IMG/VR virus record: IMGVR_UViG_3300042356_001512
Coordinates: 1-23,970 of that record
Strand: one strand, 5' to 3'
DNA: 23,970 bases
From: a virus
Positions 8,068 to 23,970 of the stretch are shown piece after piece. The position numbers and the translations under genes are program-made. Each line of letters opens with the position of its first letter. Position 1 is the first letter of the stretch. The notes beneath the pieces are model-generated. The model had not been told where the DNA came from. It ran no database searches and was given only the letters and a program-made list of their open reading frames with translations.

Positions 8068-8077
8068 GATTTTCTCC

Positions 8078-8986: not shown

Positions 8987-9348
8987 TTTATAAAAGGTTC
9001 TAAATTAGGAGGAACCCAACCCACCGGCTTGAGTACCTTACCGTCCTCACGTTTACGTACCTTGCCTGTGTCTCGATCAATCTTGGCAAAATTGGTACTC
9101 ATGACTTCTTTCCAAGCACCTTCGGCATCCCAACCGGCACTGTGAATAGCACCGATGGTAACAACCAAAATGTCAATTAGTGCGTCTAATACTTCTACAT
9201 CGTCGTTGTTGGCCAATGCTTGTTTTAGTTCAGTATGCTCTTCTTCGATTAAAGCGCAATACATATCAAATTGTGATCCTGGAGGACCATCACAATTTTG
9301 ATCGCAGGCCCGCATAAATTTTTCTTGATCTCTAAATGGATTTGTCAT
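8983..9348 (-). CDS. MazG-like nucleotide pyrophosphohydrolase
   Basis: A 121-aa all-alpha NTP pyrophosphohydrolase-type protein. The metal-binding pattern ExxE…ExxD is visible as E36/E37, E40, E52, D55, with D59 following. Such enzymes hydrolyse nucleoside triphosphates to monophosphates; phage MazG proteins are thought to adjust nucleotide or (p)ppGpp pools. The C-terminus 'REDGKVLKPVGWVPP' matches single-domain phage and bacterial members. It lies 2 bases after the glycosyltransferase gene and overlaps the SGNH gene by ATGA. The substrate cannot be read from sequence. Confidence 0.85.
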   Translation of the reverse strand: MTNPFRDQEKFMRACDQNCDGPPGSQFDMYCALIEEEHTELKQALANNDDVEVLDALIDILVVTIGAIHSAGWDAEGAWKEVMSTNFAKIDRDTGKVRKREDGKVLKPVGWVPPNLEPFIK

Positions 9349-9350: not shown

Positions 9351-10184
9351 TTAGTTGGGTTTAAATTGCATTTGTGCGTTGGGTAGTCGGCGCATGTGAT
9401 CATTGACATCTGACGCCAACATTTTTTCCCAAGGGTCTTGTTTACCAGCAACGACATTTTTCCAATAGGTTAGGTCATATCCGCGATCTTCAAGATACTT
9501 GCACAGTTTGTAAGCATCTTGAATTCTATTATCTCGTTGAGTGACATAGTTAAAGTCTCTGGGGTCGTTGGGGTTGCCTTCAAATATGGTTCGATTTTGA
9601 AATGTAGAATCGTTGTTGTTGCCGGTCAAATCAAATCTATTATGCTCCACACGAACTGGGATCCGAACCATGATGTCCAGCATCCAAGCAATCTGACTGA
9701 TGTAAGCATCATTGAGTTGGTGTGTGCTCAGATATCCCAGCTGTTCAAACCAGGCTCTTGGCACAATGGGGAAAATGCTATAAGGGTGTTTGGTGTGGGT
9801 GTCAAATGCTTGAATACAGAATTGATCCTTGTGAGATAAAATAACTGTGTCCCATCCCTGATCCAGCATCACAGCATCGTCATTCCAAAACACCCACCAA
9901 GGAGCAGTGGCGTGCGGTCCCATCTTGTTTAGGTATTGATGCAAGTTCTGATAGCCCATGGGCTTGAACCCCAGCACAATATATTGACTACCGGCCTCGT
10001 TTAATATTGGCACAATGTTCTCAATAAAATAAGTTGAAGACTCGGTGTCGTCATTGTCAAAACCTAGTAGGAACTGTATTTGCGATGCATCATCGGCAAG
10101 ATCCACTAGACTACGTATGCTGTCCAGGAGCATTTGTGTTCTGCCCCGGCTGGGCAGTAAGATTGAAATGTTTTTATCGCTCAT
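9351..10184 (-). CDS. family 2-like glycosyltransferase
   Basis: A 277-aa GT-A fold protein. The N-terminus 'ISILLPSRGRTQMLLDSIRSL' and 'LGFDNDDTES' form the nucleotide-binding half. 'WWVFWNDDAVML' places the metal-binding DxD equivalent (NDD). It probably transfers a sugar from a nucleotide donor, either to a phage component (DNA base, tail protein) or to the host surface. It lacks membrane segments. It is first behind its own promoter and has an AGGA ribosome site. Donor and acceptor are unknown. Confidence 0.82.
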   Translation of the reverse strand: MSDKNISILLPSRGRTQMLLDSIRSLVDLADDASQIQFLLGFDNDDTESSTYFIENIVPILNEAGSQYIVLGFKPMGYQNLHQYLNKMGPHATAPWWVFWNDDAVMLDQGWDTVILSHKDQFCIQAFDTHTKHPYSIFPIVPRAWFEQLGYLSTHQLNDAYISQIAWMLDIMVRIPVRVEHNRFDLTGNNNDSTFQNRTIFEGNPNDPRDFNYVTQRDNRIQDAYKLCKYLEDRGYDLTYWKNVVAGKQDPWEKMLASDVNDHMRRLPNAQMQFKPN

Positions 10185-10206
10185 GTTATCCTAAGGTATT
10201 TTACAT

Positions 10207-10235
10207 ATTATAACAAAGTACCAGCAAGATTGCAA
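10207..10235 (-). promoter_or_regulatory. sigma70-like promoter for glycosyltransferase unit
   Basis: TTGCAA (10230-10235) and a perfect TATAAT (10207-10212) with 17-base spacing. The predicted leader of about 16 bases holds an AGGA ribosome site before the ATG at 10182-10184. Confidence 0.68.
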
Positions 10236-10244
10236 GTATCTTGC
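10224..10244. promoter_or_regulatory. inverted repeat overlapping -35
   Basis: Perfect 7-base arms (GCAAGAT/ATCTTGC) around a 7-base loop. The repeat covers the -35 box and lies 17 bases after the stop codon of the radical SAM gene. The arms match the GCAAGA/TCTTGC repeat at 6271-6285. No T-run follows on the minus strand, so an operator or 3' stem-loop is more likely than a classic intrinsic terminator. Confidence 0.5.
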
Positions 10245-10261
10245 CAATATTGTTGTTCAAA

Positions 10262-12190
10262 TCACTGTTGAGTAGACCGGCATTCCACTGTGGCTTTGCC
10301 GTAATTTCGTCGTCGGCCAAAGTAAAATAATTCTAAAAATCTGGAAAAACTAATGTCGTGATCTTCTAGAAAATCCAACTTGTAGGTCGACTCAGTCTGT
10401 ACAAGATCACTACCAAATGTAAGGTACTCCCAAATATTGTAGTCTAGCACAAGATCTTCCGGGTAAGTGTTGATAGCGTCATAGGTTACAAAATATCTAC
10501 GTTGCAACTTAACCAATGCGTCTAGTAATTTATCTGGTAAATTGTATCTCTTCATAAAATTGTACAGTAGCCCAAACACCGCATCGTATTGTTTCTCGAT
10601 GTGCATGTTGATCACAGTACGATGTATCAAATTCCAACCGTGAATCTCTATTTCAAATTCTGGATGATCAATTTTTCCCTGTGTCATCCAATTGTAATAG
10701 TATTTTTTTAGTTGTTCTTGTTCATTCACCAGCCATGCATCAGTCTGTATAAACTCAAACAGCTCTTCGTAGAAATCATGATAACTAACTCCAGCATAGC
10801 GATTAACAAATCGACTCAACAGTGTACTAGTGCCGTTGATGTGAAAGGTGTTGATAAACCAAGAGAAAATATGTGCATCAAGCATTTCATCAAAGGACAA
10901 ATCTTTGGTCGAAGTTATAATTTCAATGCTTTCTTCAACATGCTCGTTGCTATAGCTACCGGCAAAATAATCTGTCACAGGCTGACTGGTTATTTTATAT
11001 ATTTTTCGTTGTAGTAAATTCATCTCTGCATTTTCCAACAACTGTGCTTGGAAGATGGCAATACCAGTATGATTGCCCATGTCAAACAATTTGTAAAAAT
11101 TGTTTTTCCACGTTTGCAGACTTTCACCAGGAAGTCCTAGTATAAGTTCAGTATAGGTTGGAATATTTCGTTGCTCGCACATTTTAAAAATATCAGCAAG
11201 ACGATTCATCTCCATGTTCTTGCGATGTATATTTTCCAACACACCTTCGGTGAGAGTTTGCACTGATAATGTTAGGCCTTGATTGAACCACCTAGTGTCA
11301 AGCAGACGTTTGACAATGTCAACAACTTGTTTCTGTTGATTCTTTGCCCACGCCAGTGACAACATTTTTGGAGCACCGTAGCGTTCTTGGCATTCGATAA
11401 TCTTGTCGGCGATCATGCCATCACGTTCAGCAAACATACCAAAGTTGGCGTCAGTTATACTGATAAAATTAAAATTATTTTTACCAAACCATTCTATTTC
11501 TTCAAATACGCGATCTAATTCAAACTTCTTGACTTTGCTGTAAGTTAGACTGCCCCAGTCACAGAATGTGCAGGCATACGGGCAACCTCTGTTTGTTTCC
11601 AGGGTTGCTTGCCACATAGTGTCAGGATGTTCGGCCATGAGTTTGTCAAACACACCCAATAGATACGGGCTTGGAAGCTGTTCCAAACTTTCAATGCGCT
11701 GTGCTGAACCAGTACTAACGGCTTTACCATTTTGGTTTATCAGTAAGCCAGGTATAGTTTCAAATTGTTTGCGCTCAAATTCTTGTAAAATTCTTTTGAT
11801 GGTGATTTCGCCTTCATAGCATACCACCAAATCCATGAATGGATTTTTTACAAATATATCTGGGTCAGTGACAGCCGGCTCGGGTCCACCAAAAATAATC
11901 AGCACCGCGGGATTGAGTTGTTTGATTTGTCTTGCTAGTTCATAGTTATAATTGTGATTCCAAACATAGGTGCTAAACGCCACAACATCACATTGACTCA
12001 ACCTTTTGGCAATGGGCTCGACTGCATCACGCCGCCACACCCATTCAACAACTTCAAAGTTGTCTTTGATCCATGGATCCGAAATAGCATACCCCCACAA
12101 CACCCCAGCCGAGTACGGCAGGTAAAAAGCATTTAACTCTTTGGGGCCTTGTTGAAAGTTTGGCTGGACCCATGCAATTTTATAAGTCAT
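10262..12190 (-). CDS. B12-binding-type radical SAM protein, 642 aa
   Basis: The N-terminal part (about 1-150) resembles a cobalamin-binding Rossmann domain ('VVAFSTYVWNHN', 'IIFGGPEPAVTDP', 'VVCYEGE'), but no DxHxxG lower-ligand motif is seen. The radical SAM core follows with CxxxCxxC at C203, C207, C210 in 'NRGCPYACTFCDWG'. 'ELILGLPGESLQTW' is also typical. The C-terminal 200 residues are of unknown fold. Relatives perform methylations or ring rearrangements; the substrate here is unknown. The gene overlaps the end of the dadA-like gene by 11 bases and would draw S-adenosylmethionine from the phage MetK. Confidence 0.9.
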   Translation of the reverse strand: MTYKIAWVQPNFQQGPKELNAFYLPYSAGVLWGYAISDPWIKDNFEVVEWVWRRDAVEPIAKRLSQCDVVAFSTYVWNHNYNYELARQIKQLNPAVLIIFGGPEPAVTDPDIFVKNPFMDLVVCYEGEITIKRILQEFERKQFETIPGLLINQNGKAVSTGSAQRIESLEQLPSPYLLGVFDKLMAEHPDTMWQATLETNRGCPYACTFCDWGSLTYSKVKKFELDRVFEEIEWFGKNNFNFISITDANFGMFAERDGMIADKIIECQERYGAPKMLSLAWAKNQQKQVVDIVKRLLDTRWFNQGLTLSVQTLTEGVLENIHRKNMEMNRLADIFKMCEQRNIPTYTELILGLPGESLQTWKNNFYKLFDMGNHTGIAIFQAQLLENAEMNLLQRKIYKITSQPVTDYFAGSYSNEHVEESIEIITSTKDLSFDEMLDAHIFSWFINTFHINGTSTLLSRFVNRYAGVSYHDFYEELFEFIQTDAWLVNEQEQLKKYYYNWMTQGKIDHPEFEIEIHGWNLIHRTVINMHIEKQYDAVFGLLYNFMKRYNLPDKLLDALVKLQRRYFVTYDAINTYPEDLVLDYNIWEYLTFGSDLVQTESTYKLDFLEDHDISFSRFLELFYFGRRRNYGKATVECRSTQQ

Positions 12191-13358
12191 TGTTAATCAG
12201 CTCTACTACTTGTTTTGCAGTTGCAGGACATAGAGTCCAACCCAAGTGCCCGTGTCCTGCGTGATAAAACACCTTTGGATTTTTGTTGCTTTGCTGAACA
12301 ACCGGCAACATATTTGGCGTCATTGGGCGCAAACATGCCCATTGTGTGTAGTCGTGTGTGTTGATATCAGGAAAATTAGTGTGTACCCAATCTAATAATG
12401 GTTGAATTCGATCACGTCTAATATCGTAATTTTCTCCTGCAAGTTCTGCAGTGCCTGCGACACGTAATCTATTACCTAAAGTTGCAGTAACAATCTTTGC
12501 TTGATCATCTAACAAACTTACCTTGGGCAAATACTTGGGATCAACGTCATTGATTGTGATGCTGTAACCTTTGACAGGATAGATACCTAGACTGTCACCT
12601 ATACTATTTGCTAACTTTTCGGAACCAACTCCATTGGCCACAACCACTGCATCATAATATGAAACATCTTCAATGTGTTTGATTTGCCAACCGTAGTGAA
12701 ACTCAACACTGTATTTCTCTTTAAGTATCTGTTCCATTTCATAGCAGAATTTGTGTATGTCTCCCACAAAGTCAGATTTAGTCCATACCCCACCTAAAAT
12801 ATTATCTAATCGAAACAGCGCCGGATCTAAACTAAGTGTTTGAGTTGATGTTAAAATATCCCACTCTACACCATTGTCCTTGTAAATTGTTTTTGATTGT
12901 TTGGCAGTATCAAAATACTGTTCATCTTTGTAGAAATGTAAGATACCTGACGGACTATAATCAAAGTCAATGTTTTCGTCCTTGAGAATCTCTTTGTACA
13001 ATTTGCGGGACTCTAACCCTAACTTGATAGTTGTTTCGGTGTTCTTTTTGTAAGCCCCGGTGGCGGTGTAATAAAGAAACTTTGCCAACCACTTCCATTG
13101 TGCCCAATCAAGACGTGGACGTATTAGTAATGGAGCATCCTTCTTGAACATCCACTTAACGCCTTTTTTAACATTGCTCCATGTTGTCCAAACTTCGCTG
13201 TTGCTAACAGAGACTTGCCCACCATTAGCAAAGCTAGTGCGCATGGCAGGATAGCGTTCCTGCTCGTAGACAGCAACGCTATATCCTTCACGGGCAAGGT
13301 AGTAGGCTGTGGTAATACCGGCAATGCCGGCTCCAATGACTGCTACACGTTTCTTCAC
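12180..13358 (-). CDS. dadA: D-amino acid dehydrogenase-like FAD oxidoreductase
   Basis: A 392-aa FAD enzyme of the DadA (DAO) family, which oxidises D-amino acids to 2-oxoacids and passes electrons to the respiratory chain. GxGxxG is at 9-14. 'RTSFANGGQVS' (40-50) and C-terminal 'GHGHLGWTL' are DadA hallmarks. It is slightly shorter than the usual 410-435 aa. The start is a GTG (13356-13358) overlapping the queD TGA, so it depends on coupling. Amino-acid oxidases related to glycine or sarcosine are alternatives. DadA is unexpected in a phage; its partner queD suggests co-expression only. Confidence 0.88.
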   Translation of the reverse strand: MKKRVAVIGAGIAGITTAYYLAREGYSVAVYEQERYPAMRTSFANGGQVSVSNSEVWTTWSNVKKGVKWMFKKDAPLLIRPRLDWAQWKWLAKFLYYTATGAYKKNTETTIKLGLESRKLYKEILKDENIDFDYSPSGILHFYKDEQYFDTAKQSKTIYKDNGVEWDILTSTQTLSLDPALFRLDNILGGVWTKSDFVGDIHKFCYEMEQILKEKYSVEFHYGWQIKHIEDVSYYDAVVVANGVGSEKLANSIGDSLGIYPVKGYSITINDVDPKYLPKVSLLDDQAKIVTATLGNRLRVAGTAELAGENYDIRRDRIQPLLDWVHTNFPDINTHDYTQWACLRPMTPNMLPVVQQSNKNPKVFYHAGHGHLGWTLCPATAKQVVELINNDL

Positions 13359-13852
13359 GCAAACAAGTCCTCATTCCATTCACGATGACCTTCACGGAAG
13401 GCCATGTTGCTTTGTGTCTCACGCACTTCTACGCGATAGCACCAAAGACGAGCCGCTTCACCAGGCCCCCACATCTCTGGAATGTAAACACCATTAACAT
13501 ACTTGTACAGCATATCGGATAGTCCTTCACAGCCCAGCCGAGGTAACACAACTACTTTGGCCATTTTTTTCTCTACCAACAAGTTGTAGGTTTCCATCTC
13601 GGGATCATCTGCCGCAACAATCAGTGTATGGTCAAATTGGTCTTCTAGCGTTTTCTTTAGTTCTTTGAGACCACCATAATCAGCGGCCCAGTTTCGAACA
13701 TCCAGATCGTTGGTGCCAAAGTAAAACTTCATACTGAACGAGTATCCATGAATTAAATTACAGTGGCTGTCTGCCCTCCACTGTCTGTAGGCGCATGGAA
13801 ATGCGTCGTGATATTCTTTTGTCGAGGTATATTTGTATGTGATGGGTGTCAT
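13355..13852 (-). CDS. queD: QueD/PTPS-family 6-carboxytetrahydropterin synthase-like
   Basis: QueD turns dihydroneopterin triphosphate into 6-carboxytetrahydropterin, the QueE substrate. The ATG at 13850-13852 (ribosome site AGGAG) gives 165 aa; an upstream in-frame extension into the gap is not supported. Matches include catalytic C31 in 'SHCNLIHGY', 'DYGGLKELKK' (58-67), 'DQFDHTL' with H75, and 'GCEGLSD'. The usual zinc ligands are altered: the first His is Y22 and the third (HGH) is Y37, leaving H35, with H30 nearby. I recall the 'CxYRQWRADSHC' form from other phages, so it may be a functional variant. First gene behind its promoter. Confidence 0.87.
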   Translation of the reverse strand: MTPITYKYTSTKEYHDAFPCAYRQWRADSHCNLIHGYSFSMKFYFGTNDLDVRNWAADYGGLKELKKTLEDQFDHTLIVAADDPEMETYNLLVEKKMAKVVVLPRLGCEGLSDMLYKYVNGVYIPEMWGPGEAARLWCYRVEVRETQSNMAFREGHREWNEDLFA

Positions 13853-13862
13853 GCTGTTTTCT

Positions 13863-13884
13863 CCTATGTTAATTATAGCATAGG
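13863..13884. promoter_or_regulatory. inverted repeat flanking the queD -10 box
   Basis: CCTATG and CATAGG arms (6 bases, perfect) are placed around a 10-base centre that holds the TATAAT. Because transcription would start near its edge, the symmetry is in DNA rather than RNA, which suits a repressor or activator site. Confidence 0.4.
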
Positions 13885-13901
13885 CTGGCAGAGTTTGTAA
13901 A
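13872..13901 (-). promoter_or_regulatory. sigma70-like promoter for queD-dadA-radical SAM unit
   Basis: A perfect TATAAT (13872-13877) has either TTTACA at 18 bases (13896-13901) or TTACAA at 17 bases (13895-13900) as -35. The leader of about 13 bases carries AGGAG. Confidence 0.6.
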
Positions 13902-13924
13902 GCGGGATGAAGCCAAGACCGCTT
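13900..13924. terminator. possible stem-loop after the HIT gene
   Basis: AAGCGG/CCGCTT arms, 6 bases each and GC-rich, enclose a 13-base loop. It lies 10 bases beyond the HIT gene stop on the minus strand and runs into the queD -35 region. Only a short T-run follows, so termination would be weak. Confidence 0.35.
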
Positions 13925-13934
13925 AGAAAAGTAT

Positions 13935-14333
13935 TTATGCTGGTAGTTGATAGCCAGTTTTCTTGTAGTTTGCTTGTCCAAAAATAACTCCTCGGACACC
14001 GCCAACTGGATCTGCACAGTCTCCGTTACGTCTGGGAATCAAATGTACATGTGGATACATCACAGTTTGTCCAGCGGCCACGCCCATGTTGATACCAACA
14101 TTAAAAGCATCACAGTCGTTGGCATTGACCAGTGATTGTCCATACCGTAGTGCCGAATCAAAACAGTCACGTATCACGTCCACTGTATTGTAATTGGGCA
14201 CAAAAAGCAAATGTCCCATTGTTACTGGAAACCGATCTTGAAAAACAGTGACATGAAAATCACTGAGTTCCTCAACTTGAATATCCCATGGTGCAACACC
14301 ATCTTTTTGTGCTTGTTCTAAATCAGTGGTCAT
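13935..14333 (-). CDS. HIT-family nucleotide hydrolase/transferase-like protein
   Basis: A 132-aa histidine-triad protein. The family acts on nucleotide phosphoramidates or dinucleoside polyphosphates through a covalent nucleotidyl-His. 'FPVTMGHLLFVPN' (35-47) and 'GQTVMYPHVHLIPRR' (88-102) are typical. In the HxHxHxx motif the first His is Tyr (Y93); the catalytic middle His (H95) and last His (H97) are kept. It starts 2 bases after the protease-side gene boundary (14336 is the protease stop), with no ribosome site, so it is probably coupled to the protease gene. Function in phage infection is unknown. Confidence 0.88.
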   Translation of the reverse strand: MTTDLEQAQKDGVAPWDIQVEELSDFHVTVFQDRFPVTMGHLLFVPNYNTVDVIRDCFDSALRYGQSLVNANDCDAFNVGINMGVAAGQTVMYPHVHLIPRRNGDCADPVGGVRGVIFGQANYKKTGYQLPA

Positions 14334-14335: not shown

Positions 14336-16765
14336 TTAAAAGTTTGCAGTGTAGTAGGCTCGAGCATTGCTAGTGCCATCTTGAGCTACCTGGGCACGGA
14401 ATCCCACACTGTGTTTGGTATTACCAGCATCATTAAAATTGTGTTGATACTTGATACCCAAGTATGTAATTGGTGTGCTAACTAAACTATTGTTAATTTG
14501 CGTGTACTTCATAGTACCGTCGGCATCAACGCTGGTTGGTACATTAAAGTTCACTGCACCCGACGCCACAGTTGGCTTAATACCGGCAAACAAATTCCAA
14601 TCCTTGTACTGATACCCACCCATGGCGTGCACAGCAAAAATTGGTGTTACATTAGAAACTAGGCCACTGGTGTGGTTGACACTAGTCATCATAGCACCAC
14701 CTTGTGCCCACCAACCTTGTGGTTGACCAAGCTTGGTTTCACGCTCACCAGGCTGGTACAATGCACTGTATTCTGTGGTGAATGCCGACTTAGTTTGTCC
14801 ATAAGCACCACTAAAATTAACAAACGGATTGTGGGTGCTATTGGTCATGGTCAATTGATGAATAGTAGAACTGCTTGCTTCGTCGGGACGCTTTGGCAAC
14901 ATTCTTGAATCTATAGTTAGTGTGGCATCTGCACCAATTTGGTTGCCAGAAAATGGTGTTTGTAAATTTTGCCCAGCTACTAGGCCAGTCCAACGACCAC
15001 TCCAGTTATATCCAGGATCAGCATCCATCATTATTGGATTACTCATCAAGTTGTTGACGGCCGCACTACCTTTCATGTCCACGCTAAAGTCTCGCTGAAA
15101 GCTGTCAACCACTGACACCGAGCTCAAGGTAGATATAGTGCTAGCCGAAGTGCTGGCTAGAGCAATACCACCTGATAATGGCACAGTAGAATTGGTTCGG
15201 CCATTAAGTGCAATACCAAGATTGCCCACAGGCTGGGTGGCTCGGTCCAAGTCCAGTAAACCTTGTCCCATGATGTCGGGGTTGTAACCCGGGAGATTTT
15301 TATTGGCTGTTTTTAACAGTAGTTGAACTTGATTTGACGCAGTCATGTAGGGCCATAGTTGATTGACCACTGCCAGTGCACCGGCAGCCACAGCAGATGC
15401 CTGGCTAGTGCCACTCATGGCCTTGGTGCCTGTTGCACTAACTGTGATGGGTGACACACTGTTGACTAACATACCAGGTGCTAAAATATAAAAGTCGCTG
15501 ATCTTGTATTGATCTAAACAGGCAGTACCGGCTACATTTTTACACACAGTGCCTGCACCCGCACCCTCGATCCGCCCGGCTTTTGCGTTCCAATTACCCA
15601 CCACCAACATTTGGCCGTTTAACAATAATTTACCATTGGCATCGGTTGCTGTGGCAAATGTAGCTGGATTTTGCGGATAAGGAACACTTTGGTTACCGGC
15701 ACTGACTGTGACTGCTAATTTAGGTGTCAATGTCTGTGCCCATGATTGTGGCGATTCAAGATTGTAATAATTTTTGCCACCATAGTTGGGATCTGAACTA
15801 GCATATATTCCGGGACTCAGGACCTTGACCGAAGCAGTGTATGTTGCGGCATAATTTGTATTTGCTGACAAGTTGGCCACTACAATATCAGGTTTGTTGG
15901 CGGCCCAGGCCAAGGCGCTGGCAGCATTACTGCCAACAATGTTTGAAGTATTACTGAGTTTGACCACAGCAAGGTTGGCATCAAACGCAACACCTGTGGG
16001 AGTAACATTGTTACGTGCACCTGCAACGATTCCGGCAATGCTGGTACCGTGACCTACAACGTCTTGCAATCCAGTGCCAGTGATATCAAGTTGATATTTT
16101 ATTTTACCTGCAAATGCTGGATTATTGACATCAATGCCAGTGTCCATGACCATAACAGTGCTGCCTTTGCCGGTCCAACCACGTGCCCAAGCTGCCGCAC
16201 TGTTGATGTACTGGTTAGCACCATTATTATACTGAGTATTCTCCCAGGACTTGGGCATACTACTAAACACCGCAGTTGGTGTTCCCCGATAAGGGCTATG
16301 TCCATAGTAGGTGGCTGCATTAAATGTATTGGTTGGCACAATGGTAATAGCTGGAGGAGCAACAACTACAGCAGTTGGAGACGGAGTAATTATTGTACTA
16401 CTGGCCAACGTCCTCACCGTTGATGGGGTAACCGTGTTCCTAGTATTAATAGTGGTGGTCAACAAAGTTTCAGTTACTTGTTTGGTGCCATTGCTGAGAG
16501 TAACTGTGGTAATTTGATAACGTTTGTCCTGTGCTGTGATGGGTGTGGTAGTTCGAGTTTGCACTAAATTATACACATTTTTTACCACAGATCCATCGGC
16601 TTGTTTCACTGTTTGTGTGTCAGTGTTTGTGGTTTTGACCACAATTGGGGTACCTGCACTAATCACAGTCGACTCAGTTCGATATGTAATTTTTTTAGAT
16701 ACCACTGTTTGTGCAGTGGCCAGACCACTAATCAGCACAAACAATATTGATGCAATATATTTCAT
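14336..16765 (-). CDS. secreted subtilisin-like (S8) serine protease, autotransporter-like
   Basis: An 809-aa exported protease. Residues 1-18 form a signal peptide with ATA|QT cleavage site. A Thr/Val-rich linker (19-145) precedes the S8 domain with Asp208 (VMDTGID), His239 (VGHGTS), oxyanion Asn358 (SAGNQ) and Ser454 (SGTSQAS), a complete active site. Residues from about 520 on have repeated aromatic-alternating strands and end in 'YYTANF'; a terminal Phe is the outer-membrane barrel signal. It may thus be a beta-barrel-anchored or autotransporter protease. Alternatively the C-terminal part is a virion-binding domain. It has its own promoter and a GGAG ribosome site. Confidence 0.9.
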   Translation of the reverse strand: MKYIASILFVLISGLATAQTVVSKKITYRTESTVISAGTPIVVKTTNTDTQTVKQADGSVVKNVYNLVQTRTTTPITAQDKRYQITTVTLSNGTKQVTETLLTTTINTRNTVTPSTVRTLASSTIITPSPTAVVVAPPAITIVPTNTFNAATYYGHSPYRGTPTAVFSSMPKSWENTQYNNGANQYINSAAAWARGWTGKGSTVMVMDTGIDVNNPAFAGKIKYQLDITGTGLQDVVGHGTSIAGIVAGARNNVTPTGVAFDANLAVVKLSNTSNIVGSNAASALAWAANKPDIVVANLSANTNYAATYTASVKVLSPGIYASSDPNYGGKNYYNLESPQSWAQTLTPKLAVTVSAGNQSVPYPQNPATFATATDANGKLLLNGQMLVVGNWNAKAGRIEGAGAGTVCKNVAGTACLDQYKISDFYILAPGMLVNSVSPITVSATGTKAMSGTSQASAVAAGALAVVNQLWPYMTASNQVQLLLKTANKNLPGYNPDIMGQGLLDLDRATQPVGNLGIALNGRTNSTVPLSGGIALASTSASTISTLSSVSVVDSFQRDFSVDMKGSAAVNNLMSNPIMMDADPGYNWSGRWTGLVAGQNLQTPFSGNQIGADATLTIDSRMLPKRPDEASSSTIHQLTMTNSTHNPFVNFSGAYGQTKSAFTTEYSALYQPGERETKLGQPQGWWAQGGAMMTSVNHTSGLVSNVTPIFAVHAMGGYQYKDWNLFAGIKPTVASGAVNFNVPTSVDADGTMKYTQINNSLVSTPITYLGIKYQHNFNDAGNTKHSVGFRAQVAQDGTSNARAYYTANF

Positions 16766-16853: not shown

Positions 16854-17666
16854 TTACCTTGGTGCAAACTCTTGTTGCAGTTTGATGTTGTCAAAAAACT
16901 CTTTCTTCACACTAGGATCGTCTTTGAACGCACCTTTGAGCACAGTGGTCTGTGTTAGACTAGAGTGTGCCATAATACCACGATTCTCACAACAACCGTG
17001 TGTGGCTTGAATGTACACTGCTACGTTTTCGGAGTCAGTAGCCTTACTAATCTCACGGGCAATGTCATTGCAAAGTTCCTCCTGGAGAGTACCACGTCGG
17101 GCACACCATTGGGCAATTCGGGTGTACTTGCTGAGTCCGATGAGCTTTTGTGCGGCAATAAGGCCAATATAAGCAACGCCAGCCACGGGTTGGTGATGAT
17201 GGCTACACATACTGCGAAGCTCGCTACGAACAACCAACATACCTTCGTAACGGTCCTGCGAGTCGTTTGGAAACGCTGTGGCGTCTGGTCCTGGTTCATA
17301 TCTACCCTCCATAATTTCATTGAAGTACATTTTGGCAAGTCGTCTTGCAGTACCTTTTGAGTTGGGATCGTTCTCACGATCAATAAGCAACCGATCAAGC
17401 ACTAGTTCAAATGCTTCTGTTGCTTCATCTATAAGGGTATGTTTCATTTCTTCAGAAACATAATCACTGATGTTGTCGCCTGCCCAAAAACGTTTGTTAT
17501 CACGCTTCATCTTGGTACGAATGGCATCTGCTAGATACGCTTCTTCGTATCCCTTGTCGCTCATCATTTCTGCGGCTTTTACAATTGGGCTTTGATGAGC
17601 GTGTGGTATAAATGCGTTTTTTGAGTCTGAATGGATAACGGGATGCGGGATAAAGTCTTTGGTCAA
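16854..17666 (-). CDS. folE: GTP cyclohydrolase I
   Basis: Converts GTP to dihydroneopterin triphosphate, the first step to both folate and preQ0. Family features are 'GTARRLAKMYFNEI' (105-118), zinc ligands C154 and H157 in 'CSHHHQP', 'GLSKYTRIAQWCARRGTLQEEL' region (177-198), and H223-G-C225 completing the site. At 270 aa it carries about 60 extra N-terminal residues compared with the 222-aa E. coli enzyme. The start is TTG (17664-17666), chosen for the GGAG site 7 bases upstream. It is alone between two promoters. With queD and queE present, it probably serves 7-deazaguanine synthesis. Confidence 0.93.
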   Translation of the reverse strand: MTKDFIPHPVIHSDSKNAFIPHAHQSPIVKAAEMMSDKGYEEAYLADAIRTKMKRDNKRFWAGDNISDYVSEEMKHTLIDEATEAFELVLDRLLIDRENDPNSKGTARRLAKMYFNEIMEGRYEPGPDATAFPNDSQDRYEGMLVVRSELRSMCSHHHQPVAGVAYIGLIAAQKLIGLSKYTRIAQWCARRGTLQEELCNDIAREISKATDSENVAVYIQATHGCCENRGIMAHSSLTQTTVLKGAFKDDPSVKKEFFDNIKLQQEFAPR

Positions 17667-17705: not shown

Positions 17706-17734
17706 ATTGTAATATATTTAGATTGCAAAGTCAA
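17706..17734 (-). promoter_or_regulatory. sigma70-like promoter for folE
   Basis: TTGACT (17729-17734) and TACAAT (17706-17711) spaced by 17 bases. The TGA stop of the upstream DegT-like gene (17731-17733) forms part of the -35 box. The expected leader is about 33 bases. Confidence 0.62.
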
Positions 17735-17738
17735 TCTA
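17719..17738. promoter_or_regulatory. inverted repeat spanning stop codon and -35 of folE
   Basis: Perfect 7-base arms TAGATTG/CAATCTA with a 6-base centre. The repeat includes the TGA stop of the DegT-like gene and the folE -35 box. It is the same arrangement as at the other unit boundaries. Confidence 0.48.
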
Positions 17739-18327
17739 TAATTTTAATTTTTCTAAGATCTGGATACTTTACTGCAATTGGTGCGGGAGTGTTTTCTTTG
17801 ATTCCCTCCAACAAGGCCAATGCAGTTGTGGCTTCTTCGATGGTGGGACGGTAATGGTAGCCCACATGAAATTCTTTTTGAGTCTCCCAGGGGCTGATTT
17901 TGAGATCACGCCCATCACTGCGCTGTTGTATCAATTTCTGGTAGGCTTTCTGGTCATCCAACAAGATTGCACCACCGCGTCCAATATGCAATGGTTTGCC
18001 GTGACCAAAACTTAGACACTGCATTTTACCGGGTCGGTACATGTCCCGTTCAAGACGCCGTGCACTGTCCCAGACTCGAGTATAAACAAACTCATATTCG
18101 CCCACCCATGTCTGCTCAGGCTCATCTAAATACACGTAGTGAATGCCCAGTTTATGCATGGTCATTGGCACACTGAGGTAGGTGTAAGGAGTCATTTTTA
18201 GTCCACGTACACCATCATATTTCAAGCACATCTCAATGGCATGAGTGCAACAATCAGTCATGATGACATAAGGCGCACCTGTAAACTCACCTAAGGCTTT
18301 TTCAAATTCAAAAATTTTATCGAACAT
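17731..18327 (-). CDS. miniature DegT/DnrJ/EryC1-type PLP protein, 198 aa
   Basis: Resembles the large PLP domain of sugar aminotransferases. Visible are 'FTGAPYVIMTDCCTHAIEM' (15-33, cofactor-phosphate segment), D87 in 'VWDSARR', the probable Schiff-base K111 in 'SFGHGKPLHIGRGGA', and 'VGYHYRPTIEEA' (155-166), where classic members have GYNYR. The C-terminal small domain, about 120 residues or more, is missing, and the middle is compact. The start is set at ATG 18325-18327, 11 bases inside the galE end; ATG 18342 is an alternative. The frame is intact with no sign of decay, so it is likely a reduced active or partner protein. Target sugar unknown. Confidence 0.75.
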   Translation of the reverse strand: MFDKIFEFEKALGEFTGAPYVIMTDCCTHAIEMCLKYDGVRGLKMTPYTYLSVPMTMHKLGIHYVYLDEPEQTWVGEYEFVYTRVWDSARRLERDMYRPGKMQCLSFGHGKPLHIGRGGAILLDDQKAYQKLIQQRSDGRDLKISPWETQKEFHVGYHYRPTIEEATTALALLEGIKENTPAPIAVKYPDLRKIKIID

Positions 18328-19276
18328 ACCAATTCCAGGCATGTTGCACAATGTAGTGAAGTGTATTATATTGCCACTTGCCAGCAACTTTTTCAAATCT
18401 GCCAGCATTGGCTGTGAGCTCGCTTGGATCTCCGGGTCTAGGATCACCTATGGTGACTTTGAGTTTGCGTCCAGTGATTGATTCGGCCATGGAAATAATT
18501 TCCTGATTACTGGTACCTTTGTTGCTGCCAAGATTGTATACTCCGGTTGGAATATCATCATCCAGCGCACGAATATGTGCTCTTGCAATGTCCTCAACGT
18601 GCACATAATCTCGAACACAGGTTCCGTCATTGGTGTTAAATTGATTCCCGTTTAACACAAACTCTTCGTCGTCACGCAGGCTTTCTAGCACCCGGGCAAT
18701 GATGTGTGTGGCACCTGGCTCTTGACCATGGCGGGCTTGACTATCAGCACCGCAGGCATTGAAGTATCGGAAAATCACTGGTTGCACCCCATACGCACGG
18801 AAATAACTTTGTAGCATCATTTCAGTCATGAGCTTGCTTTCACCGTAGGGACTTAATGGCAGTGCTGGATCTTCTTCCTGACATGCACCCATGATGGGCT
18901 CGCCGTATACCGATGCCGAACTGCTGAAAATGATTCGAATGCTAGATTGCAACTTGGCCGAAACAACAGCATCTATCATCTTCTTTGTACGTACAAAGTT
19001 GTTTTGATAGTACAGTTCCGGATCACTGACACTGGGACCAACTAAACTTGTTCCGGCACAATGAATAATTGCCGATGGCTGATGCATAAACATAAAGTCA
19101 ATGGCACCTTGGCTGGCAAAATCTCCTTGGTATACGTGAGACAATGCCGTTTGCACGTTCGTAGGACATGGACGAATGTCAACTCCGACTACGGTGTATC
19201 CTAAGTCGTTTAGTTGAAGTGCAGTTTGGCCTCCAATGTAGCCCGAACTTCCAGTAACAACCACAGTTTTTGTCAT
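18317..19276 (-). CDS. galE: UDP-glucose 4-epimerase-like
   Basis: An extended SDR enzyme interconverting UDP-hexose C4 epimers. 'GSSGYIG' (9-15) binds NAD; the catalytic set is 'SSSASVYG' (118-125) with Y144 and K148 in SPYGESK. 'FRYFNACGAD' and 'GTCVRDYVHVEDIARAH' are strongly GalE-like, and 319 aa is close to the family length. The ATG overlaps the upstream stop as ATGA. UDP-N-acetylhexosamine epimerase activity is possible. It sits in the sugar operon and probably supplies galactose-type precursors. Confidence 0.92.
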   Translation of the reverse strand: MTKTVVVTGSSGYIGGQTALQLNDLGYTVVGVDIRPCPTNVQTALSHVYQGDFASQGAIDFMFMHQPSAIIHCAGTSLVGPSVSDPELYYQNNFVRTKKMIDAVVSAKLQSSIRIIFSSSASVYGEPIMGACQEEDPALPLSPYGESKLMTEMMLQSYFRAYGVQPVIFRYFNACGADSQARHGQEPGATHIIARVLESLRDDEEFVLNGNQFNTNDGTCVRDYVHVEDIARAHIRALDDDIPTGVYNLGSNKGTSNQEIISMAESITGRKLKVTIGDPRPGDPSELTANAGRFEKVAGKWQYNTLHYIVQHAWNWYVR

Positions 19277-20085
19277 ATATATTCTTTCAAAGATCGTTCA
19301 AGACCCCATAGGTCAAAATTGTGCGATGCCAATTTGGCACCATTGCCGGTGAAGCATTGGTCGCTGGTGGATAAAAACTTTACAAGGCCAGGGTCAACTC
19401 CGTGTTGTTCATAGTATATACGCAACACATCGCTTAGTCTATGTTTCTGATCATAGACAAGATTTACATCATTGTATTTCAAATTACCTTGTATGGTTTG
19501 GTCAATTACCACTGCAAGATCGTGTAAACTAAACAAGTCAAGAAACCTGTCATTTTCAAATCGAAAGCGGCGATTGGCAGATATATTTTTTACCACATCT
19601 TGTAAAGGGGCAACGTATTCAGTATCATGTTGACCAAAACTACCAAACATTCGTAGGTTATAAAAGTTTGGTAGCTGTGTCACCAATCTAGCAATGATGT
19701 TTTTACTGGCGCCATGCAACTGTGACGGATACCGTTGAAATAATTCTTCCTCGGTAGTTTGATCATTGTTGACTTCAACGTCAAACTCGGCACCTGATGC
19801 CAGATTTATAAACTGTTGATAGTGCTGTTTACAACTGGCCAAGTTGTTAAACATAAAAAGGTTGTTTTGAAATATTGCTGGATTTAATGTACGAACAGCC
19901 CTGCGCCCATAAGTGGCACAATGTATTATGGTATGAAAGTGTTTGTCAGCAAAGAAGGCTTGGACCATCTCTCGATCCAACAAGTCCAGGTCATGATGAT
20001 TGATGGCAGTGACATCATAGCCTGGTAAATTGTTTGTTAGGTACGACCCAACAAGTCCGCTAGCGCCGGTAATTAGTATCTTCAT
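19273..20085 (-). CDS. NAD-dependent sugar reductase/epimerase-like SDR, 270 aa
   Basis: Starts MKILITGASGLVGSYL, an NAD(P)-binding Rossmann motif; 'DLLDREMVQAFFADKHFHTI' then 'IHCA' resembles dTDP-4-dehydrorhamnose reductases and GDP-fucose synthases. The catalytic region keeps S97 ('NLASGAEF') and K128, but the YxxxK tyrosine is His124 (HGASK). It may use a different acid or be inactive. The chosen ATG is 20083-20085; a perfect 14-base tandem duplication around it creates a second ATG just upstream with a five-codon frame, and a TTG at 20118 gives an in-frame 11-residue extension. No good ribosome site is visible. Confidence 0.82.
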   Translation of the reverse strand: MKILITGASGLVGSYLTNNLPGYDVTAINHHDLDLLDREMVQAFFADKHFHTIIHCATYGRRAVRTLNPAIFQNNLFMFNNLASCKQHYQQFINLASGAEFDVEVNNDQTTEEELFQRYPSQLHGASKNIIARLVTQLPNFYNLRMFGSFGQHDTEYVAPLQDVVKNISANRRFRFENDRFLDLFSLHDLAVVIDQTIQGNLKYNDVNLVYDQKHRLSDVLRIYYEQHGVDPGLVKFLSTSDQCFTGNGAKLASHNFDLWGLERSLKEYI

Positions 20086-20101
20086 AATAGTATCTTCATA
20101 A
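20074..20101. repeat. 14-base perfect tandem repeat at a gene start
   Basis: Plus-strand TAGTATCTTCATAA occurs twice in direct succession (20074-20087, 20088-20101). The unit contains the start codon and first codons of the SDR gene. The upstream copy yields a five-codon frame whose TGA overlaps the real ATG. Confidence 0.9.
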
Positions 20102-20118
20102 AATTTATACAATGTCAA

Positions 20119-21048
20119 TTAACATTTGGGGTTTTCTAAGTACCAGTTGACAGTTTGCAACAACCTTTGTTCAAACGACACTGTCTCTGACCAACCTAGA
20201 TTATATAGCTTACCGGGATCTACAGAAAAACATAAATCATGACCAGGTCGGTCAATCGGCACCAGGCGATACTTTAACTCTTTGCCCATGGCTTGTGCAA
20301 TCAACTGTGCAAAGTCTAGATTGTTTATAAAGTTCCGGCCGGCACTATTCCATTTTTCACACCGAGCAGTTTGTGTGTTCAAAATGAATCTTGTGTGACT
20401 GGCCACATCTCCGGCATAAAACCACCGCCTTCCACCAATAACGTTGTTGGCACCTACTTGTAAATCTAAAGTTTCGTTGTTTATTAATTTGTTTATGACA
20501 ATAACTGGTAATCTATTGGGCTGACAGCGTGGGCCAAATGTGTTGTTGATGTGGATAACACTGACCGGAACATTGAATGAGTTGGCATAGGCCAAACACA
20601 GCTCTTCGCCTGCGGCCTTGCTGGCTGCATATGGACTGTTGCTGTTGTAAGCATCTGTGATTTGACTATCTTGTCCAATAGGTATAGGCCCATATACCTC
20701 GCCTGAACTGTAATAGACAAACCTTTCAACACCAGCATGCCGCGCATACTCTAACAAGTTTAGTGTGCCCAACACGTTGTCCATAACTGATGCTGTGGGG
20801 TTGTTCAAGCTGTCGGCCGCACTGGGGTTGGCACCAGCGTGTAATATAATATCCACTGCTGGCAAATTTGCACAGGGATTTTTAATATCGTGCTCAACTA
20901 TTTCAACGTCATCAATGACATTCTGAAGTCTGCTCATGTTGGCGGTGCCTGGCCGCACCATGCAGATCACACGATGATCAGGCAAAAATTCTTTTACTAG
21001 GTAGTGTCCAATGAACCCATTGGCGCCAGTGATCAATACTGTTTTCAT
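20119..21048 (-). CDS. dTDP/CDP-glucose 4,6-dehydratase-like NAD-dependent SDR
   Basis: A 309-aa extended SDR with 'ITGANGFIG' (6-14), S115 in 'YYSSGEVYG', Y140 and K144 in 'SPYAASK', and C-terminal 'RPGHDLCFSVDPGKLYNLGW', a stretch typical of the RmlB group. The dehydratase Asp-Glu pair in TDEVYG is here Gly-Glu, so a 4-epimerase, decarboxylase or altered dehydratase is also possible. 'GPRCQPNRLPVIVINKL' is also family-like. If it makes the 4-keto-6-deoxy sugar, it would feed the RfbH-type enzyme. Its TAA lies just before the duplicated start of the next gene. Confidence 0.87.
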   Translation of the reverse strand: MKTVLITGANGFIGHYLVKEFLPDHRVICMVRPGTANMSRLQNVIDDVEIVEHDIKNPCANLPAVDIILHAGANPSAADSLNNPTASVMDNVLGTLNLLEYARHAGVERFVYYSSGEVYGPIPIGQDSQITDAYNSNSPYAASKAAGEELCLAYANSFNVPVSVIHINNTFGPRCQPNRLPVIVINKLINNETLDLQVGANNVIGGRRWFYAGDVASHTRFILNTQTARCEKWNSAGRNFINNLDFAQLIAQAMGKELKYRLVPIDRPGHDLCFSVDPGKLYNLGWSETVSFEQRLLQTVNWYLENPKC

Positions 21049-21716
21049 GGAGTATATTTGTATACAATGTCTGTGGCGTTGTCTAATATTCGAGAATATT
21101 TCATTTCAGTAAAAAATTGATCAAGCATTTCATTTGTTACATTATATCGGGCAGCCCAAGGCTCGTACCACTCCACCATGATTACTGGATGATACTTTTC
21201 GATGGTTTGGCGTGCACCCAACAAAGCAAAATACTCGTAGCCTTCAACATCTAACTGTATAAGACCGCAACTGGGAAGATTTAATTCATCAATGATCACT
21301 GTGGGCACATTGCCTTGACCATCCACATGAATTGCTCCTGCATCATTGGTGACATTTAAATTTACAAACTTTTTATCGTTGCCTATACAGGCTTGTGTTT
21401 TTATGACGTTATTGCCACAATTCAAAGTCAAGCACACAAAGTTCAATGGGTTGGGTTCAAAAGTGTAGACTGTACCAAACCATTGAGCAAACTGTCGTAC
21501 ATACTGTCCGCAATTGCCCCCGGCCTGCACCATGACACTAGTTGAGTCAACGTGACTCATTACTTCATGAAAAAACTCCGGTGTTACACGAAATTCATGC
21601 ATGTAACTCCAACATGCTTGATCATATCGGGGCCACCACAATCTTTCCAGTTCAGGTAAACTGGATTCTCTTAGTTCTACTAGATCTTCTATTCTGGGAA
21701 TTTTATCTGTTATCAC
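21045..21716 (-). CDS. FkbM-family methyltransferase
   Basis: A 223-aa class I methyltransferase. 'VMVQAGGNCGQYVRQFA' is the S-adenosylmethionine-binding motif I, followed by 'YTFEPNPLNFVCL'; 'IQLDVEGYEYFALLGA' is the FkbM hallmark, and 'PVIMVEWYE' follows. Such enzymes O-methylate sugars in polysaccharides and natural products. The start is GTG (21714-21716) within GTGA overlapping the transketolase C-half stop. It probably modifies the sugar made by its neighbours. The exact hydroxyl is unknown. Confidence 0.9.
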   Translation of the reverse strand: MITDKIPRIEDLVELRESSLPELERLWWPRYDQACWSYMHEFRVTPEFFHEVMSHVDSTSVMVQAGGNCGQYVRQFAQWFGTVYTFEPNPLNFVCLTLNCGNNVIKTQACIGNDKKFVNLNVTNDAGAIHVDGQGNVPTVIIDELNLPSCGLIQLDVEGYEYFALLGARQTIEKYHPVIMVEWYEPWAARYNVTNEMLDQFFTEMKYSRILDNATDIVYKYTP

Positions 21717-22192
21717 GATCTTCTCACATTCAAATATGCAGGTTGTTTGCTGTATAAAAATTCAGACCAGACTGATTCTAGTTCCTGAATGGAATTGGGC
21801 TGATATATTTTGATGTTGGGAAATACCTCAACTGCCCGTGCGGCATCTTCGGCCCAGTGACTAAATCCAAGATGCCCGTAGTCTTGATCACGACCAATAC
21901 CTACTAGCTTGACCGGTGCCAGCTCATGATCCAAATAGTTACGCAACCACTCGTATGGACGAAAAATTACAAATGGTGTGATGCTGTAGCACACTGGAAT
22001 CTTGCCGCAATGTGTGAGACCTACTGCGGCACCGACCATGAGTTGTTCGGCCGCGCCCACATTGATAGCTCGGTCAGGAGCCACTTGTCTTGATTTATTG
22101 AGTACACCAAATCCTAAATCGCCGGTTAGTAACCATACATTGGGATCGGCTGCCAGGCTGTCAGCAATGAGTTCGCCAAATCTGTTTCTCAT
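21713..22192 (-). CDS. transketolase-like, pyrimidine-binding half (short)
   Basis: A 159-aa protein corresponding to the Pyr domain of thiamine-diphosphate transketolases. 'INVGAAEQLMVGAAVGL' contains the catalytic Glu that activates thiamine; 'IFRPYEWLRNYL' and 'GFSHWAEDAARAVEVFP' are typical. The usual C-terminal domain is absent: split homologues are about 300 aa. It overlaps the N-half as ATGA, so equal amounts are likely. With that partner it could form a minimal carbon-transfer enzyme. Confidence 0.88.
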   Translation of the reverse strand: MRNRFGELIADSLAADPNVWLLTGDLGFGVLNKSRQVAPDRAINVGAAEQLMVGAAVGLTHCGKIPVCYSITPFVIFRPYEWLRNYLDHELAPVKLVGIGRDQDYGHLGFSHWAEDAARAVEVFPNIKIYQPNSIQELESVWSEFLYSKQPAYLNVRRS

Positions 22193-22797
22193 AATTTATC
22201 CATGTCTTCGGGTTTCAACACATAGTAATGTGTGAGTATACCTTGTGCAAACGGCCAATCGGGTGGAGAAGTTTCGCGTATGTTGATGCGTGGCAAGAAA
22301 GCCTGTAATCGACGCACAATATATTCTCGGTCAATGAAGTCATACGCAATCATGCCGTTGACATTGACGTATACTTCTAGATTATCTAGTTTGGCTTCGT
22401 AGATGAATCTTAGAGCTTCCCAGATAGATCCTTCACCACATTCACCATCACTGATCAAACAATGCACACGTCGATTGCGATCAGCAAGTGCGTATCCTGT
22501 GGCCAGTGTAAGTCCCATGCCAAGACTGCCTGTGGAGCAAGGCAATCCGTCATCTAGATTTCTATGCGGATGTACTCCGTGTTTGTGAAACAAGTGTTCA
22601 GCATCTTTGCCTAGATATTTTTCTAGCACCACATACCAAGCCAAGGCTGCATGACCTGAACTCAAAATAAACGGTTCATTGGGTTGTTTATTTTTGTAAA
22701 TTTCTTCAATGATGTTTACAGCGTTTAGATTAGAGCTAAGGTGCCCAATTTTTTCTCGATAGCTGATATCAATAATTCTTTTTTCAACGTCGTTCAT
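22189..22797 (-). CDS. transketolase-like, thiamine-diphosphate-binding half (short)
   Basis: A 202-aa protein matching the PP domain. Visible are 'LSSGHAALAWY' (50-60), 'STGSLGMGLTLATGYALA' (about 88-105) and the cofactor motif 'SDGECGEGSIWEAL' ending in 'NVNGM'. Split N-subunits are usually about 270-300 aa, so this is compact. Its ATG overlaps the TGA of the RfbH-type gene. A two-carbon transfer to a keto-sugar is a plausible role, discussed under findings. It is too short to be a primary-metabolism transketolase by itself. Confidence 0.88.
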   Translation of the reverse strand: MNDVEKRIIDISYREKIGHLSSNLNAVNIIEEIYKNKQPNEPFILSSGHAALAWYVVLEKYLGKDAEHLFHKHGVHPHRNLDDGLPCSTGSLGMGLTLATGYALADRNRRVHCLISDGECGEGSIWEALRFIYEAKLDNLEVYVNVNGMIAYDFIDREYIVRRLQAFLPRINIRETSPPDWPFAQGILTHYYVLKPEDMDKL

Positions 22798-23970
22798 ACA
22801 AATAAACTCATAAAACCATCCACCTGCTCGCCAATGTACTCAATTTGTTCTGGTGTAATAACAGGACTGCATCCGTGGAAGAATGTGTTCTTCATAGTGA
22901 GTGTGGCCACAGGATAGTTGTCACGAGCATCTGCAGGATTCATCAAATGACTGTAGGCAGGCTGCAACATGATGTTACCAGCAAAGTAAGGACGGGTTTG
23001 TATCAAACGTTCTTCTAGGTAGTCTACTATGTCGTTGCGTGTGAACGGTGCATCTGCTCTAATGGTAAGAGGAAATGCAAACCAACTTACATCTGCGTGT
23101 TCTCTGGCACGTGGCAAGTGGAAAAACTCTTCGTACTTTTCGTAGATAGCAAACAGCAAATTGTAATTGCGTTGGCGCAAGGCATGAATCTCGGGCAGTT
23201 TCTTGATTTGTTCAAGACCCATGGCGGCCTGTAGTTCAATGGGCTTTAGGTTGTAACCAATTTCATCATACACATATTTGTGGTCGAAGATCTCCCCGGG
23301 CATTTCTGGAATCCATTCATTGAATCGCTTGCCACAGGTGCCACATTTTAACTTGTTGGCATCGGGTCCAACACAGTAGCATCCACGACCCCATTCACGT
23401 AGCGAGCGCACAATAACTTCTTGAGTGGGATCGTTCATGGCCACAAAACCGCCTTCACCCATGGTCATGTGATGTGCTGGATAAAAACTACACGATGCCA
23501 TTAAGCCAAAACTGCCCAAGGGCTGACCTTTGTAGGTTGTTCCCAGACCATCGCAACAGTCTTCCAACAGCACAAGATTGTGTTGCTTGACCAGTTCCAT
23601 GACATGGTCCATGTTGGGAGGATTTCCCAACACATGAGCAAATGTGATAATTCGTATGTCAGGATCATTGGCAAGAATTTGTTCAGCTTGATCCAAGTCA
23701 ATGTTCAGGGTGTCAATTTCAATATCACAAAATACAGGTGTAAAATTGTTTTGAATAGTTGGATTCAAAGTGGTGGGAAATCCGGCAATGGGCATCAACA
23801 CCTTGGTGCCAGCAGGAAAGTTGTAACCACGCTTGGATTTCATAGCAGCCATCATCAGCAAGTTGGCACTACTCCCTGAATTGGTCAACACTCCACGAGT
23901 CTTGCCAAACTGTTCGGGAAAACTGCGTTCAAATTCTAGACTTTTATTGCCCATTACTAGCCAACCGTTT
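22794..23970 (-). CDS. rfbH: RfbH-type CDP-4-keto-6-deoxyglucose 3-dehydratase, 5' end missing
   Basis: The frame is open to the right edge. An internal ATG at 23952-23954 is not the start, because 'NGWLVMGNKSLEFE' reads through it and aligns with the DegT-family N-terminal region. The enzyme removes the C3 hydroxyl of CDP-4-keto-6-deoxyglucose using PMP and a [2Fe-2S] cluster. In 'SFYPAHHMTMGEGG' His (codon 23472-23474) replaces the Schiff-base Lys, the mark of the dehydratases. 'GCYCVGPDANKLKCGTC' supplies cluster cysteines, which GDP-sugar ColD lacks. A partner reductase (RfbI type) is not in view. Its TGA overlaps the transketolase N-half. Confidence 0.9.
   Translation of the reverse strand, partial: NGWLVMGNKSLEFERSFPEQFGKTRGVLTNSGSSANLLMMAAMKSKRGYNFPAGTKVLMPIAGFPTTLNPTIQNNFTPVFCDIEIDTLNIDLDQAEQILANDPDIRIITFAHVLGNPPNMDHVMELVKQHNLVLLEDCCDGLGTTYKGQPLGSFGLMASCSFYPAHHMTMGEGGFVAMNDPTQEVIVRSLREWGRGCYCVGPDANKLKCGTCGKRFNEWIPEMPGEIFDHKYVYDEIGYNLKPIELQAAMGLEQIKKLPEIHALRQRNYNLLFAIYEKYEEFFHLPRAREHADVSWFAFPLTIRADAPFTRNDIVDYLEERLIQTRPYFAGNIMLQPAYSHLMNPADARDNYPVATLTMKNTFFHGCSPVITPEQIEYIGEQVDGFMSLFV

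Follow-up and report, generated by a model that had tools for sequence, protein, structure and literature searches.

A miniature split transketolase beside RfbH in a phage sugar cluster: a candidate pathway to branched dideoxy sugars

Described carboligases and the phage locus

In a review on tertiary-alcohol-forming thiamine-diphosphate (ThDP) enzymes, three classes are listed for branched sugars: the decarboxylase class (YerE), the alpha-ketoacid dehydrogenase type and the transketolase class, the last of which is only proposed (PMC12247030). Carboligation by YerE on CDP-3,6-dideoxy-4-ketoglucose (CDP, cytidine diphosphate) is established (PMC12247030). Here we describe a viral locus in which an RfbH-type sugar 3-dehydratase is followed by the two halves of a miniature transketolase (mini-TK), named TKN and TKC. 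The locus occupies positions 21713-23970 of the window, which is the whole IMG/VR record IMGVR_UViG_3300042356_001512, a linear fragment of 23,970 bp. The analysis is computational throughout; the scans are capped and pattern-based, and the contigs are fragments. The most likely product of the pathway is a nucleotide-linked, carbon-branched 3,6-dideoxy sugar, with a probability of about 0.7. No report of a branched-sugar pathway in a phage was found in the literature, the search being confined to open-licence PMC papers.

The closest described system is the YerE pathway of yersiniose in the Yersinia O-antigen, to which ErwE and MygE are related. In that pathway, RfbH (also called E1) feeds a 3,6-dideoxy-4-keto sugar to the ThDP carboligase, and a short-chain dehydrogenase/reductase (SDR) then reduces the branch ketone. 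The phage locus is alike in this arrangement, and relatives of the window hold an enzyme of the YerE/acetolactate synthase type in the same slot. It differs in that the carboligase is a mini-TK, the sugar dehydratase is of the deoxythymidine diphosphate (dTDP) type rather than the CDP type, the genes are phage-borne, and neither an E3 reductase nor a cytidylyltransferase was found here. The octose carboligases of paulomycin, avilamycin and kibdelomycin, of the alpha-ketoacid dehydrogenase type, are two-subunit ThDP enzymes that place an acetyl branch onto a keto sugar. A comparable pair (mini-E1) occupies the slot in some relatives of the window, but it is miniature (206 + 177 aa) and RfbH-linked. 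For the transketolases of miharamycin and amipurimycin, whose genes are split as in the window, addition of a hydroxyacetyl group to a keto sugar has been proposed (PMC12247030). Those enzymes come from Streptomyces and are unproven in vitro; the phage C subunit, unlike theirs, is without the third domain, and the role proposed for the phage enzyme is backed by co-occurrence and by exchange with known branch-forming types. The top PDB match of TKN and TKC, by both sequence and structure, is the split transketolase of Carboxydothermus hydrogenoformans (6yaj, 6yak). Its PDB chains are longer, with 309 and 341 aa (202 and 159 aa in the window), and the depositors name it as an ordinary transketolase.

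The main genes of the window are on the minus strand, with the sugar block toward the right end. RfbH, predicted to be dependent on pyridoxamine 5'-phosphate and to carry a [2Fe-2S] cluster, is located at 22794-23970; its 5' end is cut by the contig edge, and 386 aa are encoded from the first ATG. TKN, with the ThDP pyrophosphate-binding domain (202 aa), is located at 22189-22797, and TKC, with the pyrimidine-binding domain only (159 aa), at 21713-22192. RfbH/TKN and TKN/TKC overlap by ATGA. Thus, the original prediction of an overlapping gene block was borne out, as three overlapping minus-strand genes. The 34-kb contig L002 is identical to the window over these genes and extends upstream of the cut edge. 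There it encodes the complete RfbH (L002:8685-10004, 439 aa), the protein UNK241 (L002:7963-8688), a 4,6-dehydratase and a glycosyltransferase-like protein. UNK241 was assigned to no family by Pfam, NCBIfam, PHROGs or PDB searches.

Exchange of ThDP enzymes beside RfbH

In viral loci, the gene or genes after RfbH often encode a ThDP enzyme other than transketolase. One variant is a split pair of TPP_enzyme_N/M and TPP_enzyme_C proteins (YerE/acetolactate synthase type), and another is a fused enzyme of about 585-616 aa whose top PDB matches are acetolactate synthases. The third is the mini-E1 pair, with similarity to E1-dehydrogenase and E1-beta and without the usual C-terminal domain. The RfbH-anchored survey covered the best 80 of at least 580 viral loci. 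A ThDP gene is present within 6 kb of RfbH in 47 of the 51 loci with full flanks (29 YerE-type, 10 transketolase and 9 E1, one locus having two), and the types were confirmed by Pfam on representatives. On a tree of 92 RfbH proteins, the ThDP type needs 21 changes, and at least 5-7 changes per type are forced by well-supported branches. Among 20 long contigs, all nine occurrences of TPP_enzyme_N are inside the RfbH module.

The nearest relative of the window, contig L171, has an RfbH 97% identical to that of the window and carries the split YerE-type enzyme. The two contigs match at 88% DNA identity over L002 4971-9999, up to the RfbH stop, and again at 80% over the downstream flank, L002 11094-15298. 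Between these matching flanks, L002 has TKN-TKC (10000-11093), and L171 has the split YerE-type genes (7316-9099). The comparison shows a clean replacement, in which exactly the two transketolase genes are swapped for the split YerE-type pair.

Three ThDP classes are thus exchanged at one place beside a constant RfbH, so the need of the pathway is presumably what they share, the addition of a carbon unit to a carbonyl. The common function of the slot enzymes is very probably carbon-chain addition to the keto sugar made by RfbH. The original prediction had proposed a branched dideoxy sugar and a coupling of RfbH to a ThDP carboligase. Both ideas are supported, and the branched dideoxy sugar is now much stronger because YerE-type and E1-type enzymes fill the same slot in relatives. 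It is also rather probable that many large phages keep a dehydratase-RfbH core for a 3,6-dideoxy-4-keto sugar and vary the branch by means of ThDP carboligases from three superfamilies, two of which were independently reduced to two-domain mini-enzymes, the window representing a transketolase with a ketone acceptor. The repeated exchange suggests selection for variety. These loci offer a natural side-by-side comparison, with the same RfbH and three carboligase types.

YerE-type enzymes use keto acids. Candidate donor-making genes (class I aminotransferase, DmpF/DmpG, NeuB and HpcH-like) were found only beside YerE-type enzymes. In L190 (9122-11075), L191 and L226, genes for DmpF/DmpG-like proteins (acetaldehyde dehydrogenase and 4-hydroxy-2-oxovalerate aldolase) adjoin the YerE-type enzyme, and they are a possible source of a keto-acid donor for a longer branch.

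The combination of RfbH, the dTDP-type 4,6-dehydratase and TKN/TKC is found in viral contigs at identities as low as about 50% and with varied gene order, and in a few bacterial metagenome-assembled genomes at about 70%. The three overlapping genes RfbH, TKN and TKC are seen again in dozens of independent contigs, and the block is real rather than a chance arrangement. RfbH and the dTDP-type dehydratase form a module that is conserved among many large and in part T4-like phages. G002, a 320-kb relative, encodes a T4-type major capsid protein, and T4-type capsid genes are present in contigs of all three ThDP types. No close mini-TK was found among the cultured phages searched. Cyanophage S-H68 has an RfbH with 42% identity, but no carboligase of the three types is encoded within 7 kb of it. 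In bacteria, mini-TKs were detected in 1 of 398 genomes of one phylum and in about 12 of 187 of a Patescibacteria class.

RfbH, the dehydratases and the mini-transketolase

The window RfbH matches Pfam DegT_DnrJ_EryC1 at 5.7e-72, and the complete protein scores 433.5 bits on the NCBIfam RfbH model (cut-off 423). Its top PDB match is 3bcx, CDP-6-deoxy-L-threo-D-glycero-4-hexulose-3-dehydrase (4e-94). A histidine (His215, in AHHMTMGEGG) replaces the lysine that binds pyridoxal 5'-phosphate, and Cys187, Cys245, Cys247 and Cys260 have the E1 spacing C-X57-C-X1-C. The active-site His and the four predicted Fe-S cysteines are invariant in a 12-sequence alignment (A3). The score and the PDB match support the 3-dehydratase function assigned before, and the residues indicate a predicted member of the RfbH family.

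The upstream 4,6-dehydratase reaches 305 bits on the dTDP-glucose model against 71 bits on the CDP-glucose model, and the S-T-D-E catalytic motif is present in nearly all members of its type. The extended SDR in the window (SDR1, 20119-21048, minus strand; YAASK) had been read as dehydratase-like. It has SSGE in place of the S-T-D-E of active 4,6-dehydratases. Therefore, SDR1 was dropped as the 4,6-dehydratase of the pathway, the upstream gene is taken as the real dehydratase, and SDR1 is probably a reductase or an epimerase. An upstream glucose-1-phosphate cytidylyltransferase and CDP-glucose dehydratase had also been expected. Neither was found: the dehydratase is of the dTDP type, and no NTP_transferase gene is present in G001 or G002. 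Since no cytidylyltransferase or CDP-type dehydratase was found, a dTDP sugar appears likelier than a CDP sugar, and the CDP route is unsupported.

No Fer2-type E3 reductase, the electron donor of RfbH, was found in 30 contigs including G002. As G002 has neither NTP_transferase nor Fer2, the host would have to provide both nucleotide activation and the electrons that RfbH needs. The lack of an encoded E3 could also mean that a branched sugar is made on another acceptor, namely C3 or the glucoseen intermediate of RfbH, rather than on the C4 ketone of a 3,6-dideoxy sugar. This acceptor is quite unlikely, as the host could supply the electrons: housekeeping ferredoxin or flavodoxin reductases are known to serve RfbH homologues such as SpnQ.

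TKN matches Pfam DXP_synthase_N (1e-6) and Transketolase_N (7e-6), and TKC matches Transket_pyr (5.6e-15). AlphaFold2 models of the single subunits have a predicted local distance difference test (pLDDT) score of 94 and a predicted template-modelling score (pTM) of 0.91 for TKN, and 91 and 0.89 for TKC. Their top PDB matches are 6yak, the split transketolase N subunit, and 6yaj, the C subunit, respectively. Residues H19, H49, H76, D117, E122, N147 and H190 of TKN correspond to H26, H66, H100, D155, E160, N185 and H261 of E. coli TktA, and E49, F74 and H112 of TKC to E411, F437 and H473. According to these residues and models, the predicted ThDP/Mg site and the catalytic His and Glu are kept across the two domains. 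The third, C-terminal transketolase domain is absent, as the TKC gene stops after the pyrimidine-binding domain, and the same holds for all relatives of the family. The halves total 361 aa (202 + 159). Thus, the original prediction of halves of about 360 residues, forming a miniature two-domain transketolase with a cofactor site, agrees with the residues kept and with the good models of both halves. In the family, TKN mostly has 200-270 aa and TKC mostly 147-182 aa. In the genome surveys, the mini C forms, with frames of about 137-177 aa, and the ordinary split C subunits, of about 300-420 aa, fall into clearly distinct groups.

The transketolase fold and the catalytic residues would also be expected of an auxiliary pentose phosphate pathway enzyme that lies beside sugar genes by chance, and cyanophages carry transaldolase near sugar genes. 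However, the phosphate-binding site is partly lost. On comparison with the TktA sugar-phosphate site (R358, S385, H461 and R520) and with D469, H461 is replaced by Gly100 of TKC, which is invariant, and the acceptor-site D469 by Leu108 in the window; R520 is kept as R/K, and the alignment of R358 and S385 to TKN/TKC is not safe. In addition, the same slot is filled by YerE-type and E1-type enzymes without a pentose phosphate role, and bacterial genomes with mini-TKs have other, larger Transket_pyr proteins. A pentose phosphate role is therefore very unlikely.

D469 of transketolases contacts the acceptor hydroxyl, and Leu108 fits a 3-deoxy acceptor. D469 is lost mostly in mini-TKs with RfbH: the position is Leu in 49 with RfbH and Asp in 35 without it. 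These raw counts agree with the replacement as a marker of 3-deoxy acceptors, but the agreement is not significant when ancestry is taken into account. As a separate observation, one virus (L070) has two mini-TK pairs (9935-10483 and 13440-13922), as have L019, L020 and L069; the RfbH-adjacent pair has Leu at the acceptor position, and the second pair has Asp.

Proposed pathway, tailoring genes and neighbours

In the proposed pathway, the upstream dehydratase would make a nucleoside-diphosphate-4-keto-6-deoxyhexose, probably linked to dTDP, and RfbH would remove the 3-hydroxyl, a host reductase supplying the electrons. TKN and TKC would form a single ThDP enzyme whose active sites lie where the subunits meet, and this enzyme would add a carbon unit to the C4 ketone, giving a tertiary alcohol. 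The donor of the transketolase type would be an ordinary ketose and the unit most likely a two-carbon ketol (hydroxyacetyl). The hydroxyacetyl unit follows from the chemistry of the family, and we give it about an even chance. An SDR would then reduce the branch ketone, FkbM would methylate the sugar, and glycosyltransferases would attach the finished sugar to its target. In related phages, the branch step would be performed by YerE-type decarboxylases or the mini-E1, so that the branch differs and the sugar core stays.

Several points weigh against a branched 3,6-dideoxy sugar. The action of split transketolases on ketones has been proposed but never shown in vitro (PMC12247030). The mini-TK family is known from sequences and models, and we infer the assembly of TKN and TKC from folds modelled as single subunits. 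The E3 reductase and the sugar nucleotidyltransferase are both absent from the relevant contigs, and 4 of the 51 RfbH loci have no ThDP gene within reach. In ancestry-aware pairs, the change of D469 to Leu gave 3 concordant, 0 discordant and 2 neutral cases with RfbH (p 0.25). Mini-TKs also occur without RfbH, in Patescibacteria and Omnitrophota operons with SDR, methyltransferase and glycosyltransferase genes, and beside HldE-like kinase/nucleotidyltransferase genes. Thus, the reaction of the mini-TK family may be broader, and its role seems to lie with unusual sugars in general.

The HldE-like neighbours raise another alternative, in which the ThDP enzyme acts before activation and builds a ketose or a higher-carbon sugar phosphate for later activation, much as heptose pathways do. 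Some mini-TKs have HldE-like kinase and nucleotidyltransferase genes, or a HAD phosphatase, as neighbours (L109-L111, L098/L099/L104/L106), the window has an HldE-like nucleotidyltransferase (3179-3649), and in phages S-SM2 and P-TIM68 a fused E1-like ThDP protein is encoded beside heptose-type genes. On the other hand, RfbH and the 4,6-dehydratase, the constant partners in the clade of the window, act on nucleotide sugars, and no transketolase is needed earlier. Action before activation is thus unlikely, and addition to the RfbH-made nucleotide sugar is preferred.

The window nucleotidyltransferase has 156 aa, matches the PHROG of heptose 7-phosphate kinase/heptose 1-phosphate adenylyltransferase (1.4e-31) and is conserved at 75-86% in several related contigs. 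The fused ThDP protein of Synechococcus phage S-SM2 (L247, 6971-8179) and Prochlorococcus phage P-TIM68 (L248, 7046-8191) has about 380-400 aa, is annotated as transketolase central region and has no RfbH nearby; its gene is in a sugar cluster with kinase, nucleotidyltransferase and phosphoheptose isomerase-like genes. In L118, L119, L120, L134, L145 and others, a conserved Patescibacteria/Omnitrophota operon has the order SDR, zinc-motif methyltransferase, TKN, TKC and ArnC-like glycosyltransferase. A few bacterial mini-TK operons are near homologues of glucose-1-phosphate cytidylyltransferase and CDP-glucose dehydratase; in L134, TIGR02623 (265.5 bits) and TIGR02622 (202.2 bits) are the best-scoring models, both under the cut-off.

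Branched-sugar transketolases acting on ketones have so far been only proposed, and the mini-TK family is small, compact and accompanied by keto-sugar-making partners. Phages would vary a sugar of a surface, a virion or DNA by exchanging a single C-C bond-forming enzyme, which would make the purpose of such viral sugar genes testable.

The tailoring genes follow TKC on the minus strand. The FkbM-family methyltransferase (21045-21716), probably for sugar O-methylation, overlaps TKC by GTGA and SDR1 by ATGA. It matches Pfam Methyltransf_21 (2e-13) and TIGR01444 (55.1 bits, cut-off 37.7), and comes after the mini-TK or the split YerE-type enzyme in close relatives. SDR1 is conserved at 65-82% in relatives. 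The RmlD-like SDR2 (19273-20118) is a candidate branched-ketone reductase; the genes of its relatives are directly 3' of most YerE-type and E1-type carboligase genes. In the window copy, the tyrosine of YxxxK appears to be His, so the activity of this SDR2 is uncertain. A GalE-type epimerase (18317-19276; NCBIfam galE, 265.7 bits, cut-off 262.3) marks the downstream end of the cluster. Its gene overlaps by about 130 bp with 17731-18447, which encodes a short DegT-family-like protein of 238 aa. This protein is conserved in relatives and resembles a reduced aminotransferase-family protein.

The same region has QueE-like (5356-6240), QueD-like (13355-14017) and FolE-like (16854-17666) genes. Upstream, a 505-aa protein of L002 (2939-4456) has a DSGGFQ motif like that of tRNA-guanine transglycosylase/DpdA; it has no PDB match, and the DpdA label is by motif. 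These genes together make 7-deazaguanine DNA modification probable. As QueD-, QueE- and FolE-like genes are typical of this modification, DNA is one place where the sugar might be attached; glycans of the host envelope or of the virion are just as possible.

Other genes of the window encode an S-adenosylmethionine synthetase (4054-5184), a Bax1-I (Bax inhibitor) family membrane protein (7378-8067; E 1.8e-52), a B12-binding radical SAM protein (10262-12190) and a DAO-type FAD oxidoreductase (12180-13358). An 809-aa subtilase (S8) protease (14336-16765) is encoded between the sugar and the queuosine-type genes.

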